From Streptococcus sanguinis (GTDB lineage: Bacteria > Bacillota > Bacilli > Lactobacillales > Streptococcaceae), in contig NZ_RJMM01000010.1 of the NCBI RefSeq assembly GCF_003943655.1, forward strand, positions 1-38,584: 38,584 nucleotides of DNA, in the 5' to 3' direction. Positions 32,656 through 38,584 of this stretch are shown here, piece by piece; position 1 is the first letter of the stretch; every line of letters starts with the position of its first letter. The notes beneath the pieces were generated by a model. The model was not told where the DNA came from, searched no databases, and worked only from the letters and a program-made list of their open reading frames with translations. The translations under genes were made by a program, and so were the position numbers.

Positions 32656-33031
32656 ACTCGTCCTCTCTTTGTACCGTATATTATATATGAATTCTTTGAC
32701 GAACAAAACTATTTTGCTCAAAATCAGAAAACAAGAACTTTATTGGAACAGAGACAAGCATATCACTCTTCATAATATGAAGATTAACATCATGGATAGT
32801 GTTCTTAACCATGCGAACAAATAGTGTCGGACCATTTGAACATATGACAGACTTCTCAACATCTAGAAACTGAGTAAGTCCTGATTTAACATAAACACAG
32901 GCTTTCTATTTTAACGGTTTGTGAAATAAACCTCAATCTTTTTATTCAAAAAAGGTGAGACAAATGTCATTTTGTCCCACCCTATTGTCTGCATCATCTT
33001 AAGCAAAATTTTCATCTTGCTTGTTTCTGCA
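32656..33031. other. Intergenic region between the exopolysaccharide operon and DUF1033
   Basis: The 376 bp contain no convincing gene. Near 32680 is the -10 of the DUF1033 gene, a short dyad TCTTCAT/ATGAAGA lies at 32767-32783, and the GH8 gene's terminator hairpin lies near 32954. Nothing else was recognised. Confidence 0.5.
32947..32981 (-). terminator. Terminator of the exopolysaccharide operon (repeat copy C)
   Basis: GGTGAGACAAA (32954-32964) pairs with TTTGTCCCACC (32971-32981) with one A-C mismatch, followed on the minus strand by TTTTTT. The GAGAC/GTCCC mismatch is the same as in copy A near 9929. Confidence 0.8.
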
Positions 33032-34138
33032 TTATAAAGTTTCTAAAGCAATCATTGTGGTCACAGCTGCGTCATAGTAATTGTCTGACGGCAAACCTTG
33101 CATGAAGAGATATTTATTCTGCTGCACCAATTTGCGGAATTCAATGTTGTTATTAGCTGCATAGAATACTGGAGCAGTAAAGCTGCCAGCCTGATTGCTA
33201 TTGAGAGCCTTCCCTTTCAGGTTGTAGCCCGCATAAATCTTTTCTTGATTAAGGAAGAAGCTCAACATCTTCTTCAGCATTTTTTGACTTTTTTCATCCT
33301 TGCTTTGAGCCAGGTTGTAAGGAAGTCGGCAGGCATTATAAGAATAATAGCCATCATTTGCAGACTCAACTGTATCAGCATCAGCTGCCCGAACTTTGTC
33401 GCCTTCAACCCAGATAAAGTCTGGTATCAAACCAGTCTTATTATCAGCACTGATTGCTTCAAGTTTGCTGAGCATGTTATCCCGGATTGTCAGCCACTGC
33501 TTATCCTTTGTCAACTCATAGAAAGCTTGGAACTGCTGCGGCAACGTATCAGAAGTCCGCATGAGATTATAAAATTTCGATTCTGCATTTGCCCAGTTCC
33601 CAACCGTCAAAACACCGTTGCTTTCATTATAGTTATATGCCAAGACATCTTTCAGAATAGCCTGAGCCTGAGCTTGGTATTCTTTAGCCTTGTCTGGCCA
33701 CTGCTTAGCTGCCTGAATCAAAGCATAGGCAATGTAAAGATCGCCGTCTGTAGCATTGTTTTCGTCTTCATGATTGCTCTTACCATCCTTAATCGTCTGC
33801 TTCCAAGACATAAGCTGGGTATCTTTCAGACGATGAGCTAGATAATATTGGTAGAGCTTTTCAAAATCAGCCAAACTAGCATCACCTTGCTTAGCTGCAT
33901 CCACAGCAATCACCATGCCATAACCCTGTGCCTCAGACAGCACAACATCTTCAGTCTTACTGTTTGTCGTCCTGATATAAGACAATTTGTCCTTGGTTAC
34001 GACATATTCTTTAGACCATTGGCTGTATATTTTCTTTTTAATATTAGGAGTACTGCCCATGCGGGTGTACAAGAGGATACTAGCCAAGACAGCCAGAATT
34101 ATCACAAACCAAATAAATCTTAATCTTGTTCTTTTCAC
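33032..34138 (-). CDS. Membrane-anchored GH8 glycanase of the exopolysaccharide operon
   Basis: The 368-residue protein has a basic N-terminus and one signal anchor (about 8-25), then a GH8 (alpha/alpha)6-barrel domain. The catalytic-acid motif is VLSEAQGYGM (Glu69), and ATDGDLYIAYAL (Asp131/Asp133) holds the family aspartates. GH8 glycanases of the BcsZ/PssZ type cut the beta-linked polymer made by a nearby synthase. Here the gene lies 8 bp after the GT2 synthase and is the last in the operon. The substrate is not known; a beta-1,4-linked amino sugar or glucan is likely. Confidence 0.9.
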   Translation of the reverse strand: MKRTRLRFIWFVIILAVLASILLYTRMGSTPNIKKKIYSQWSKEYVVTKDKLSYIRTTNSKTEDVVLSEAQGYGMVIAVDAAKQGDASLADFEKLYQYYLAHRLKDTQLMSWKQTIKDGKSNHEDENNATDGDLYIAYALIQAAKQWPDKAKEYQAQAQAILKDVLAYNYNESNGVLTVGNWANAESKFYNLMRTSDTLPQQFQAFYELTKDKQWLTIRDNMLSKLEAISADNKTGLIPDFIWVEGDKVRAADADTVESANDGYYSYNACRLPYNLAQSKDEKSQKMLKKMLSFFLNQEKIYAGYNLKGKALNSNQAGSFTAPVFYAANNNIEFRKLVQQNKYLFMQGLPSDNYYDAAVTTMIALETL

Positions 34139-34146
34139 ACTTTCTC

Positions 34147-35457
34147 CTAACCTGCAAATCGTTTTGTTTTAACCCACTTGGTTTCTTTCCGCTTCAAAAT
34201 CTTGTCCAAGATAACAGATCCTACTGCATCTAAAGAAACAACGATAAAGAGCTGAGAGTAAGTCAAATAGGACACAAGGGCCAGCCAAATCTGTTTGGTG
34301 GTCGCCTGTCCAAACTGAGAAGCTAGGGCGATATTGATCTGCAAAAGATAAAGCAAAATCATCAGAAGCCAGTTAAAGAGCATCAGCTGGACGATATAGA
34401 TATTCTGAGCATCAAAAGCGAAAGGAATCCGCACATCCGGTATAAAGAGCTGGGTAATCATTGCCGCTACATTGGCAAAGAAAACCAAGTCAGATAAGAC
34501 AATCGCCAAATTAAACCAGAAGAAGATACAAGAATAATTGAACACTTCCAGTTTCACGCGCCAGTTACCGCCGCTAAAAAGATGCTTGAAGTTGTCAATA
34601 ACCACCTCATAGTTCCCCTTAGCCCAGCGCTTACGCTGCAAGTAGTAGGACTTGAGGGTTTCTGGTTCTTGCTGGAAAGCCTCTGAGTTATAAGCCAAGG
34701 CAATCAACTTGCCGCTCTGCATAATCTTAAAGGAAATTTCCGTGTCCTCTGTCAAGGCACCATTTTTCCAACCACCAATACTCTTAACAAACTCAGTGTT
34801 AATCAAGAAGTTTGTACCTGGAATCCGTCCAATTTTGAAGAGATGCCACATACCTACGTGGTAAACACGCTGAGTTACAACGATTTCTTGGTTGATACAG
34901 CGAGTCAGGAAGTTCTGGTTGGCATTCCGAGTCTTATTGCGTCCAAAGGAAGCAACGTGACGTTCTGGATCTTCTAAGACTTTCTTGACTAGGAAGTAAA
35001 GAGCATTCTTTTCTGGCATGGCATCCGCATCATAGACACAGATATATTCGCCCTTGGCCATCTTCAGGGCATCATTCAGCACCCCTGCCTTACCTCCCGT
35101 ACCTGTACGGTCTGTAATTATAACATTGCGTCCAGCATACTCAGGCATCGCCTGTACTTTCAGCATTTCCTGATAGGTATCGTCCGAGCAGTTGTCCGCA
35201 AAGAGCAGAACTTCCACTCGGTCATGAGGATAATCCAAGTCCAGAATGGCCTTAGTCGTCTGAGCGATAACCACATCTTCATTGTGGGCAGGAACAACGA
35301 CTGTAACCATAGGATAATGCTCCAAGGGACTGGTATCCACATTGAAGTCACTGCGCTTCATCCAGAAATGCACGGAAGAGCATAGAATAACCAAAGCCCA
35401 AGCCAGAGACATCCAGATGGAGAACAGGGTGATAATCATAATAAGCTGACTAATCAT
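34147..35457 (-). CDS. Processive GT2 polysaccharide synthase
   Basis: The 436-residue membrane synthase has an N-terminal helix pair (about 5-27), a cytoplasmic GT2 domain with ADNCSDD (Asp88, Asp92), DAD (Asp143/145), TED (Glu237/Asp238) and QRKRW (Gln274-Trp278), and about four C-terminal helices (about 300-425). The D,D,D,QxxRW pattern identifies a processive synthase of the BcsA/IcaA/HasA type, here without a PilZ domain. The substrate may be UDP-ManNAc, because a UDP-GlcNAc 2-epimerase is in the same operon; this is an inference. It overlaps the small membrane ORF by 8 nt. Confidence 0.92.
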   Translation of the reverse strand: MISQLIMIITLFSIWMSLAWALVILCSSVHFWMKRSDFNVDTSPLEHYPMVTVVVPAHNEDVVIAQTTKAILDLDYPHDRVEVLLFADNCSDDTYQEMLKVQAMPEYAGRNVIITDRTGTGGKAGVLNDALKMAKGEYICVYDADAMPEKNALYFLVKKVLEDPERHVASFGRNKTRNANQNFLTRCINQEIVVTQRVYHVGMWHLFKIGRIPGTNFLINTEFVKSIGGWKNGALTEDTEISFKIMQSGKLIALAYNSEAFQQEPETLKSYYLQRKRWAKGNYEVVIDNFKHLFSGGNWRVKLEVFNYSCIFFWFNLAIVLSDLVFFANVAAMITQLFIPDVRIPFAFDAQNIYIVQLMLFNWLLMILLYLLQINIALASQFGQATTKQIWLALVSYLTYSQLFIVVSLDAVGSVILDKILKRKETKWVKTKRFAG

Positions 35458-35593
35458 GACGAGTCACCGCCCTAAAATTTTTATTAACCCGATTGTAAAT
35501 AACCAGATAATAGATGAAGAGGACAAAAAAACTAATAGCAAAAAAGATACTTAGCACCATAGAGATGATAAAAAATACTTCTGTTAAAGACAT
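35450..35593 (-). CDS. 47-residue membrane peptide of the exopolysaccharide operon
   Basis: A small ORF with start ATG 35593 and strong AGGAGG ribosome site encodes MSLTEVFFIISMVLSIFFAI, followed by more hydrophobic residues and a polar tail (NRVNKNFRAVTRHD). It has one or two membrane helices. It overlaps the GT2 gene by 8 nt and lies 11 bp after the GGDEF-like gene, so it is coupled to both. Small accessory proteins such as IcaD or PgaD serve similar synthases, but this is far shorter. The role is an inference. Confidence 0.75.
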   Translation of the reverse strand: MSLTEVFFIISMVLSIFFAISFFVLFIYYLVIYNRVNKNFRAVTRHD

Positions 35594-35604
35594 GTGTTTA
35601 CCTC

Positions 35605-36393
35605 CTAGTATTCTACGATAATGTCGGTTTCAAGCTGACGCTCCAGATTGCTCAAAGCGTCGTCAAAATTATGGAATTTATCAATGTTTTGAGCATTCAG
35701 TTTTAAGCTGCCAGACTGAAACTGAATTTCTTGGTCAGTTTTTTTATTTTCAAAGCGCATTGTCGTCAAATCGGCACGCACTTTCTCTTGGAAATATTCC
35801 TTGACTTCCTGATCCAGATCTTCTACCAGAACTAGAAAGTTACCATTTGATACATAGTAAACAGTTTCTACATTCTGGAAGTCCCAGTTGAGCAGCCGTA
35901 AAATTCTCTTGAGCATCCGCTTGTACTCCCGAGAGTGAATTTGATAAAAATGATGATTGTGTGCCCAATGAACCAGTAAGGCCTGAAAGGCTGGAGCTTC
36001 TTCCAGATGCACCTTCTGAACTAGCTCATCATAGGCCTCAGCAGCATCTTCACTGTCATCCTGCACTAATCCCAAACGCTGATGGAGATAGAAATTCACT
36101 CGACTGGTCAGCCAAGCGCTGACAGGGAAGACATAAAGCAAGAAGAGAACTTGATTATCTGGTAGGTAAGTTACATCAAAGAGCAAGATTAAAGTTGCGA
36201 TAACCACACCCAGAATCATAGCCCATGTCACCAAGAGATCGGATAGGACAAAGACACTAAAAATACCTAATAAAATCAGCGCGATTCCGATATAAAATAT
36301 GTTAGCTGCAAAATTCCAACTGTAGAAAAGAATTAGTCCAATTGCCAGTACAAAGACTGCTAATGATTTTTCTAGTCCTTTTTTCCTAAACAT
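35605..36393 (-). CDS. Four-TM protein with a degenerate GGDEF domain
   Basis: The 262-residue protein has four helices (about 11-27, 31-50, 52-71 and 80-97), a linker, and a C-terminal domain aligned to GGDEF. The half-signature reads NVETVYYVSNGNFLVLV. In diguanylate cyclases the pattern is RxxD, five residues, GG(D/E)EF; here the I-site is QNVE (173-176) and the active site is SNGNF (182-186). Both are lost, so neither cyclase activity nor the standard c-di-GMP site is expected. The layout resembles PelD or Listeria PssE. It overlaps wecB by 8 nt. A scaffold or regulatory role for the synthase is inferred. Confidence 0.8.
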   Translation of the reverse strand: MFRKKGLEKSLAVFVLAIGLILFYSWNFAANIFYIGIALILLGIFSVFVLSDLLVTWAMILGVVIATLILLFDVTYLPDNQVLFLLYVFPVSAWLTSRVNFYLHQRLGLVQDDSEDAAEAYDELVQKVHLEEAPAFQALLVHWAHNHHFYQIHSREYKRMLKRILRLLNWDFQNVETVYYVSNGNFLVLVEDLDQEVKEYFQEKVRADLTTMRFENKKTDQEIQFQSGSLKLNAQNIDKFHNFDDALSNLERQLETDIIVEY

Positions 36394-37543
36394 CTTTTAC
36401 TCCTGTCTTAAATTCTTCCGGCCTAGCCGTCTGCTTAAAATAGTGAGCTATTGCTTGAGCAATCCGCTCAGAAGCCTTACCGTCACCATACGGATTGCTG
36501 GCTTGGGCCATTTCCTGATAGAGTGACTCATCTGTCAGCAGAGCTTCCATCGCCTCTGCTACTGCTTGAGTTTCTGTACCGACCAGCTTCAAGGTGCCGG
36601 CTTCAACTCCTTCTGGTCTCTCTGTTGTATCACGAAGTACCAGTACAGGCTTACCTAAGGAAGGCGCTTCTTCCTGCACTCCGCCTGAGTCTGACATGAT
36701 GAAGTAGCTTTTAGCTGCGATATTATGGAAATCCAACACATCTAAAGGCTCAATCAGATGAATTTTCTCATTGTCACTCAGAATTTCTCTGGCTGCTTCC
36801 TGAACCGCTGGGCTCAGGTGAACGGGATAGACAATTTCCACATCATCATGGGCATCTACAATCTGCCGTAGAGTTCGAAAGACCCTTCTCATCGGCTCAC
36901 CTTGATTTTCCCGGCGATGCATGGTCACCAAAATCATCTTGCGAGCTGGATTAATACGGTCAAGCACCTCGTGGTGATAATCAGCTTGGACGGTCAGCTT
37001 GAGAGCGTCGATAGCTGTATTTCCTGTCACAAAAACTGTTTCTGCCGGATGGTTTTCCTTGAGCAAGTTAGCCTTACTCTGATCCGTTGGTGCAAAATAC
37101 AAGTCGGTCAAAGAGTCGGTCATCTGACGATTCATTTCTTCTGGGAAAGGAGAGTATTTATTCCAAGTCCGCAAGCCAGCTTCTACGTGGCCGATACGAA
37201 CTTGATTATAAAACGCTGCAAGACTAGCCGCAAAAGTCGTTGTCGTATCACCGTGCACCAGCATAATATCTGGCTTGTTTTCCTTTAAGATATCATCCAG
37301 CTTATGAAGAATCTTGACAGTAATATCTGTCAGGGTTTGATTCTTCCCCATAATATCCAAATCATAATCAGGCTTAATCTTAAAAGTTTCAAGTACCTGA
37401 TCCAGCATCTGACGATGCTGAGCAGTCACAACTGTTGTTGTCTCAAACAAGTCTGCCTGCTTCTTCAGTTCAATAACCAGTGGAGCCATCTTAATTGCTT
37501 CTGGACGAGTTCCAAAAACAACCATTACCTTAATTTTCTTCAT
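36386..37543 (-). CDS. wecB: UDP-N-acetylglucosamine 2-epimerase (non-hydrolysing)
   Basis: It interconverts UDP-GlcNAc and UDP-ManNAc. The 385-residue length is normal. Motifs include VVFGTRPEAIKMAPL near 8-22, VHGDTTTTFA near 95, GHVEAGLRTWNKYSPFPEE near 114, MHRREN near 206 and SDSGGVQEEAPSLGKPVL near 284. The start at 37543 has GAGG upstream. It is the first gene of the exopolysaccharide operon and overlaps the next gene by 8 nt. This suggests the polymer contains ManNAc or a derivative. The S. mutans homologue has been called EpsC; that is recollection. Confidence 0.95.
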   Translation of the reverse strand: MKKIKVMVVFGTRPEAIKMAPLVIELKKQADLFETTTVVTAQHRQMLDQVLETFKIKPDYDLDIMGKNQTLTDITVKILHKLDDILKENKPDIMLVHGDTTTTFAASLAAFYNQVRIGHVEAGLRTWNKYSPFPEEMNRQMTDSLTDLYFAPTDQSKANLLKENHPAETVFVTGNTAIDALKLTVQADYHHEVLDRINPARKMILVTMHRRENQGEPMRRVFRTLRQIVDAHDDVEIVYPVHLSPAVQEAAREILSDNEKIHLIEPLDVLDFHNIAAKSYFIMSDSGGVQEEAPSLGKPVLVLRDTTERPEGVEAGTLKLVGTETQAVAEAMEALLTDESLYQEMAQASNPYGDGKASERIAQAIAHYFKQTARPEEFKTGVKDV

Positions 37544-37960
37544 TTTTCCTCACCAAAAATCAACATTGTTATATTAACTTTTTACTAAAAAATGTTTGTT
37601 TTAAGTAACCTTAGTTATTTTACCATCAAGCGTTTCAATAATCAAAGCATGAACTATTATTTTATACTTTCTTAATAGTAATTTACATGTTGGTAACTTA
37701 TTTAAGATTATTTTAATTTTCTTAACTTAACTGTAACTTAAAATTGCTGAAATTTTTCGGTTTTCTCAAAAAAATAAATAAAAAGGAAAGAACTTATAGG
37801 CTTAAAGTCCTATTTTATGCAGAATTTTGTGCTTTTTACCTATATTTTTTAATCTTTATTCATTGTAATAAAATATTATTCTATTTGTAATCTAATTATT
37901 TTCTATTCTTTATATTTCAAAATCCTCCCTTCATGAATGAGCTAGCTAGATAAATGCCAT

Positions 37961-37993
37961 CTACCGTTCTCTATAATCTTCGACCACTACCAT
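37961..37993 (-). other. Possible 10-residue ORF behind a perfect ribosome site
   Basis: ATG 37993 encodes MVVVEDYRER and a TAG stop. It is preceded by GAGGAGG at suitable distance within the wecB leader. It could be a leader peptide or chance. Nothing else supports it. Confidence 0.3.
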
Positions 37994-38060
37994 TAAAATC
38001 AACCTCCTCTTTTTTAAAATTTCGAACCTCCCCCTCCTACTATTTTAGGATTTTTAAAAT

Positions 38061-38088
38061 AGTATAACCTAGCGCTATCATACTACAA
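38061..38088 (-). promoter_or_regulatory. Possible second promoter in the wecB leader
   Basis: Minus strand -35 TTGTAG (38083-38088), 16 bp, -10 TATACT (38061-38066). The -10 overlaps the stem of the downstream dyad. Confidence 0.45.
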
Positions 38089-38223
38089 AAAAACCAGCTA
38101 CCTCCCTGATTAAAAATAAATATGGCGTCTCGCATCATAGAAAAACTGAAACAGGAAATCTCGAGTATTTCTTCTATAGTTGTTTATCCATAAAGGAGAA
38201 CTTAACAACAACTTTCTAAGTAT

Positions 38224-38252
38224 ATTATAGGATAATATTTAGTAGGGAGCAA
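38224..38252 (-). promoter_or_regulatory. Predicted distal promoter of the exopolysaccharide operon
   Basis: Minus strand -35 TTGCTC (38247-38252), 17 bp, -10 TATAAT (38224-38229). If used, the wecB transcript has a leader of about 670 nt. Confidence 0.6.
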
Positions 38253-38270
38253 GAAACTATCGGCTACAAC

Positions 38271-38299
38271 AAAAAATCCCTCCCGATTTTCGGGAGGGA
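38271..38299 (-). terminator. Terminator of the rpoB-rpoC operon
   Basis: TCCCTCCCGA (38277-38286) pairs perfectly with TCGGGAGGGA (38290-38299) around a 3-nt loop, followed by TTTTTT on the minus strand. Confidence 0.92.
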
Positions 38300-38306
38300 A
38301 AGTTCC

Positions 38307-38584
<278 letters not shown>

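Follow-up and report, generated by a model that had tools for sequence, protein, structure and literature searches.

The window analysed here, 38,584 nucleotides of a Streptococcus sanguinis contig (NZ_RJMM01000010.1), harbours on its minus strand a computed gene block located between the end of rpoC and the DUF1033/comG genes (rpoC and comG were labelled by eye). In order, the block comprises a non-hydrolysing UDP-GlcNAc 2-epimerase gene (wecB/mnaA; 36386..37543; ORF and profile match), the gene of a membrane protein that we call X (35605..36393), a 47-aa one-helix ORF (35450..35593), a GT2 polysaccharide synthase gene (34147..35457) and a GH8 (BcsZ-like) glycoside hydrolase gene (33032..34138; profile matches). 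Neighbouring genes are separated by gaps of 8-11 nt or overlap by 8 nt, as the epimerase gene does with X. Terminator-like hairpins follow rpoC (38277..38299, likely the upstream operon border) and GH8 (32952..32983, likely the downstream border), so the block looks like a single transcript of its own, as judged from consensus matching only. X has 262 aa, with four membrane helices and a pseudo-GGDEF domain, and its ORF, predicted model and structure and profile matches point to a YdaK/PssE-like subunit. The ORF coordinates, strand and residues given for X in a preliminary description of this DNA were accurate. X matches its counterparts in six S. sanguinis loci at 96-99%.

The synthase (ORF and profile matches) is PgaC/IcaA/BcsA-like. 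It matches PgaC/IcaA at E 3e-39, far under the equivalog cut-off, and also resembles BcsA; DAD, TED and QRKRW, which we take to be its GT2 motifs, are present. The epimerase of the block is the one wecB family match in the window genome. That genome has no match to PF03170 (BcsB), a family found in 31 of 299 genomes of the class, all outside the order. No c-di-GMP or c-di-AMP riboswitch was matched in Rfam at E<=1 in positions 32700-38584, or at the gathering threshold in the whole window.

Of 284 streptococcal genomes, 65 carry X (one of them as a remnant) and 219 do not. The operon occurs in S. sanguinis, S. parasanguinis, S. oralis, S. australis and other streptococci. The epimerase gene lies upstream of X in 40/40 streptococcal loci with long flanks (38 different clusters, two being present twice: L068/L124 and L072/L108), while three Lactobacillus-type loci have no epimerase. 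GH8 is present in 38 of these 40 loci, with partial matches only in L121; L069 reaches the contig end and L073 has none. A wecB-type gene passes the cut-off in 64 of the 65 X carriers (the exception is G273, with its decayed cluster, possibly outside the 279 genomes searched) and also in 40 genomes without X. The operon, carried by many mouth streptococci, appears designed for the synthesis of a surface sugar polymer. Searches of an open-licence library listed no description of it.

Some loci depart from this arrangement. The cluster of G273 (L125) is decayed, with an 18-residue X end, broken GT2 and GH8 frames and transposase-like ORFs nearby (by eye). In S. rubneri DSM 26920 (L073) the GT2 match covers the first part only and no GH8 was found, possibly owing to recombination. 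Streptococcus sp. DD12 carries a second X-like ORF after GH8 (L108:8042-8806 and L072:9945-10709), which does not have the C-terminal ETDxxxEY.

The 47-aa ORF, with one hydrophobic helix, sits under the usual ORF cut-off and had been overlooked; it came from an ORF scan of the gap between X and GT2. A GGAGG is located just past the start of the X stop codon, and the 3' end of the ORF shares 8 nt with the start of GT2. Scripted scanning of this gap turned up an ORF of 44-62 aa containing a hydrophobic stretch in 75 of 77 loci, a count made without a shuffled control; L093 gave an ORF in another frame, and the L026 frame runs past the usual stop. The position is the same from streptococci to Paenibacillus-like genomes, and dN/dS is 0.04-0.28 (12 of 15 pairs computable). 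A plain spacer was rejected, as the gap contains an ORF. Conserved position, similarity by eye and dN/dS indicate that the one-helix ORF is likely a missed synthase subunit.

Predicted fold and family of X

The fold of X was computed with AlphaFold2 (17 sequences; mean pLDDT 77.5, pTM 0.61). The model has four membrane helices at residues 4-28, 30-49, 52-71 and 79-107 (residues 4-107 together; 36073..36384). One helix (114-129) links the membrane part to the domain, which runs beta-alpha-beta-beta-alpha-beta-alpha to residue 261. Foldseek against the PDB gave 10 matches at E<=0.001, and 10/10 were GGDEF proteins (rank 1, E 3.5e-4); the best 50 matches contain one non-GGDEF protein, an adenylyl cyclase at rank 46. 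TM-scores by target length reach 0.76 among the matches listed. After re-alignment of 998 Foldseek chains with VIA-align, the best 50 listed were all GGDEF-domain proteins, including DosP, which we take to be one. The best was 4urq (Z 16.6, rmsd 2.6 A, 147 residues aligned), and this match covers model residues 109-262, the domain part of X. On the predicted model, residues 109-262 (35608..36069) thus have a GGDEF fold, not an unrelated one. AlphaFold2, Foldseek and VIA-align agree on this, in line with the GGDEF-type domain proposed in the preliminary description.

Direct sequence comparison was silent. X alone gave no GGDEF (PF00990) match at E<=1, so the curated Pfam cut-off was not reached; a streptococcus-only profile gave no GGDEF match in the PDB at E<=10, and the streptococcal profile did not match five cyclases (1.2% hhalign probability). 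These results would suit a fortuitous resemblance, X being an unrelated membrane protein. The structure matches speak against it, and so does transitive homology. L052, which comes from a Lactobacillaceae-like genome and is followed by a one-helix ORF and a GT2 gene, passes PF00990 at E 1.3e-10 (the other seven of eight relatives scanned do not), and the Paenibacillus-like L089 matches PF00990 at E 1.8e-7. A broad 16-member profile (A2) matched a solved diguanylate cyclase at E 5.8e-5, a match that is weak by itself because designed knot proteins appear at 1.3e-4 in the same list.

A comparison set was assembled from four-helix pseudo-GGDEF proteins adjoining BcsB and GT2 genes, i.e. in the YdaK/PssE setting. 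Twelve loci were taken from the 31 genomes with BcsB, and 11 proteins were aligned; L182 gave no clear candidate and stays outside the alignment (A7). The streptococcal X profile matched these YdaK/PssE-like proteins with a probability of 97.0 (E 1.2e-10, 172 columns), Paenibacillus-like X matched them at E 5.8e-21 over 259 columns, and the streptococcal profile matched Paenibacillus-like X at E 2.1e-10. The YdaK/PssE-like proteins are PF00990 proteins in 6/6 scanned. The relation of X to GGDEF proteins therefore appears via intermediates (L052, L089 and the YdaK/PssE-like proteins), not by direct comparison, and an accidental likeness is close to refuted. As X matches the YdaK/PssE-like set and not the five cyclases, it groups with the former, far from cyclases. 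By these alignments, made with relatives in the same gene setting and not with the YdaK and PssE sequences themselves, X appears to be a subunit of the YdaK/PssE kind, a four-helix pseudo-GGDEF partner of GT2 exopolysaccharide synthases. It shares the four helices, the pseudo-GGDEF domain, the GT2 neighbour and the profile homology that define this homology group; the BcsB-like operon partner, a trait of the group, is not found in the window genome.

Like X, YdaK (Bacillus subtilis ydaJKLMN) combines four membrane helices with a GGDEF domain that is degenerate, and the EPS of its own operon needs it (PMC5422440). YdaK differs from X in binding c-di-GMP and needing RxxD, which X does not have: R202A or D205A ends EPS support (PMC5422440). 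The YdaK setting includes BcsB, whereas the X block has the one-helix ORF and, in streptococci, the 2-epimerase. In two loci that were scanned, the gene preceding the YdaK/PssE-like protein resembles GH8, and in one of them it exceeds the Pfam cut-off. Listeria monocytogenes PssE (pssA-E operon) has a degenerate GGDEF domain (residues 107-285) and serves a GT2-made EPS, for which it is essential, and it binds c-di-GMP with a Kd of 0.79 uM (PMC4125290). This likeness to X is by description, not sequence; unlike X, PssE has c-di-GMP binding, RxxD and a BcsB orthologue in its operon. G818/L178, sought via BcsB as a candidate for Listeria PssE, was rejected because it carries STEEF and the published motif is DKDDA.

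The preliminary description had likened X to PelD. The four helices before the domain are indeed shared, as is a degenerate GGDEF receptor domain controlling a synthase, but the nearest kind is YdaK/PssE. PelD has an additional GAF domain; X has no GAF match in Pfam or in the model, its four scanned neighbours are not pel proteins, and neither the GAF, TM and GGDEF architecture nor a pelDEADAFG locus is found, so PelD was rejected as nearest relative. Streptococcal PelD has lost its entire GGDEF domain (PMC12345266 and PMC7112168), whereas X retained the domain and lost the site. The Lactobacillus acidophilus gts operon (GtsA, GtsB, PdeB) resembles the X block as a small Lactobacillales GT2 EPS operon with a membrane subunit, but there c-di-GMP is bound by a degenerate EAL protein acting as receptor (PMC6123363).

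The tree comprises 73 sequences, reduced from 87; the BcsB-linked proteins served as its outgroup and form two groups at the root (L189 is in alignment A7 and outside the tree). X forms one clade (support 99), as do the Lactobacillales copies (100) and the Streptococcus copies (100), and the streptococcal clade adjoins most Lactobacillaceae-like copies (99).

Loss of the I-site and the c-di-GMP background

The Paenibacillus-like copies align ungapped with a solved cyclase at the motif, RxxD falling on RQSD and DRGRF on GGEEF. The family alignment places X residues 173-176 (QNVE; 35866..35877) on RxxD, with the Arg lost, and residues 182-186 (SNGNF; 35836..35850) on GGEEF. Both assignments had been made in the preliminary description, and the family alignment and the solved-cyclase register bear them out. 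HWAH (142-145; 35959..35970) contains a conserved WxH where the cyclase DxD would fall. With SNGNF and HWAH, X has neither the GG(D/E)EF nor the DxD of an active diguanylate cyclase, and no RxxD stands five residues before the signature as in an I-site receptor.

The site census covered 78 distinct copies, 49 from Streptococcus, 15 from other Lactobacillales and 14 from the Paenibacillus-like families f12/f30. Loci were taken from 54 of the 65 carriers (including G273, without X) plus named loci, the copies of 11 carriers being outside the census; L010 (the broken X of G050) and L106, L143 and L138 (other GGDEF proteins) were left out. The Streptococcus sp. DD12 paralogue is counted among the 49 rows, and not in the 48-row sets used for conservation and the gap ORF. 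The equivalents of Arg359, Asp362 and Arg390 (PleD residue numbering) are present in 14/14 Paenibacillus-like copies, and RxxD in 11/11 BcsB-linked proteins aligned. None of the 49 streptococcal copies and none of the 15 from other Lactobacillales has the I-site Arg. An acid occupies the Asp362 place in 41/49 streptococcal copies. GG(D/E)EF is present in 0/49, so no streptococcal orthologue counted conserves either motif. The tree suggests, as its simplest reading, a single loss of the I-site where the Lactobacillales branch begins or close to that point.

In 7/147 streptococcal genomes, the window genome not among them, PF00990 passes the Pfam cut-off; the GGDEF motif is intact in six of the seven. 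The earlier statement that the genus generally lacks c-di-GMP signalling therefore holds for the window genome and most streptococci, but not for these seven. Among the streptococcal X carriers, 63/65 have no GGDEF-family match (the exceptions are G213 and G216) and 65/65 have no EAL match. By contrast with these, each of 16 f12/f30 carriers has 12-21 GGDEF matches, X possibly counted among them. Five weak Lactobacillales GGDEF matches were inspected and were GdpP-like. At least two Lactobacillaceae-like genomes, G538 (L052) and G339 (L048), have an intact GGEEF gene and yet an X without the I-site Arg. Site loss and messenger loss are accordingly separate events, and missing c-di-GMP alone does not account for the former. 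With the 15 other Lactobacillales copies also without Arg, the alignments argue against explaining the site loss in X just as a late consequence of c-di-GMP having disappeared from streptococci.

Several streptococcal genomes have other clusters with a GGDEF cyclase gene. In L191, L192, L193 and L194 (G219, G216, G130 and G213) a GGDEF cyclase gene stands first in a cluster that also encodes a GT2-like protein and a BcsA-like synthase of 747 aa (these two labelled by eye and weak tblastn). Upstream of the L191 cluster, in a genome without X, lie wecB-type gene fragments (L191:4630-5057), perhaps remains of an X block. L195:3142-7704 (G194) combines a GGDEF cyclase and EAL-like ORFs with a GT2 resembling PgaC and an ORF resembling PgaD (by eye except GGDEF and GT2), a possible c-di-GMP-run PNAG-type system in Streptococcus.

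X might still bind c-di-GMP through an altered I-site, fed by rare cyclases or by other bacteria. The acid at the Asp362 place makes some role there conceivable, and rare GGDEF matches do occur (7/147 genomes, 2/65 carriers). Nevertheless, we consider this very unlikely: Arg359 is lost in every streptococcal copy, the Arg390 place is not kept and both are almost unconstrained, nearly all carriers have no GGDEF match and none has EAL. Moreover, single I-site mutations abolish YdaK function (PMC5422440).

Constraint on X and its proposed role

The X domain has a dN/dS of 0.017-0.236 (14/15 pairs computable, one being saturated for the domain; 11 of the usable 14 are streptococcal), four of the usable ratios being rough because dS is above 2. 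Open frames are nearly full-length in the listed carriers except G273, and the stop in L025 lies solely in the extended start region. Conservation was ranked over 154 domain positions in 24 streptococcal representatives (<90% identical). The Arg359 place ranks 148, the Arg390 place 141 and the Asp place 83. H145, F149, Y180, G184, R252, E255, T256, E261 and Y262 are invariant in the 24 representatives, and W143 varies once; when all copies are considered, residue 252 is Cys in L026. WxH is found in 47/48 streptococcal copies (the remaining one having Y in place of W), 11/15 other Lactobacillales copies and 0/14 f12/f30 copies. The C-terminal ETDIIVEY (255-262; 35608..35631) follows an E.[DH]...EY pattern present in 77/77 copies. 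On these alignments, constraint has thus left the places of the I-site Arg residues and now falls on the C-terminus and on what was once the catalytic face.

The preliminary description had suggested that the domain may be a fossil, a misleading word in view of these dN/dS values. That both signature sites are gone and that the G273 cluster has decayed would fit a useless remnant, drifting since c-di-GMP was lost. We regard this as highly improbable given the low dN/dS, the near-full-length frames and the many invariant residues on the former catalytic face and at the C-terminal end; G273 illustrates what real decay looks like, unlike the other carriers.

The main rival of the interpretation that we prefer has X still acting as a sensor, its former catalytic face (W143/H145/Y180/G184) binding some new ligand such as c-di-AMP, which the preliminary description had raised, UDP, a UDP-sugar or a growth-state nucleotide. 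The near-invariant WxH...F...Y..G set lies at the old cyclase active site, the window genome has a c-di-AMP cyclase, and loss of the old ligand in a subunit under strong selection would leave room for another. However, these residues could equally make protein contacts, and K/R/H occurs in >=80% of the representatives at only four domain positions (145, 155, 239 and 252), few for a doubly charged dinucleotide. As the old Arg positions are almost unconstrained, a ligand bound at the old I-site in the old manner is unlikely. Overall, we judge a new-ligand sensor to be an unlikely alternative that still deserves weight.

A constitutive partnership with GT2 is the most likely reading. X is fairly likely to be the membrane partner of a GT2 EPS synthase, derived from a YdaK/PssE-type receptor and now a c-di-GMP-independent structural or activating subunit. 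The preliminary description had proposed a synthase subunit; the GT2 synthase neighbourhood is observed, and the structural role is what we infer. In the ancestor, c-di-GMP at the pseudo-GGDEF RxxD I-site would have switched the synthase on. Near the base of Lactobacillales the I-site would have been lost and the domain retained in a structural or constitutively activating role that does not depend on c-di-GMP, while control of the synthase probably shifted to transcription or another input. Since either I-site mutation in YdaK abolishes EPS (PMC5422440), the natural loss of the site implies a changed activation of the synthase. W143, H145, F149, Y180 and G184, together with the C-terminal E-T-D-x3-E-Y, are likely contacts for GT2 and the one-helix ORF. 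WecB-type enzymes make UDP-ManNAc, and the 2-epimerase would supply it; the polymer probably contains ManNAc and would be trimmed by GH8. We infer a ManNAc-type polymer from the WecB-type epimerase of the block and from the Listeria Pss polymer, which consists of ManNAc and galactose (PMC11439720).

The X block is hence a candidate synthase-type EPS operon, probably of the ManNAc type, in several oral streptococci. If X did respond to a new ligand, a c-di-GMP-type EPS switch would run on another ligand in a genus almost without c-di-GMP. On the partnership reading, X would represent a c-di-GMP-controlled polysaccharide machine that has outlived its own switch, with the loss placed on the tree. 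This raises the question of how a receptor-gated synthase operates without the receptor site, and relatives with an intact site on the sister branch allow comparison with the site-less X.
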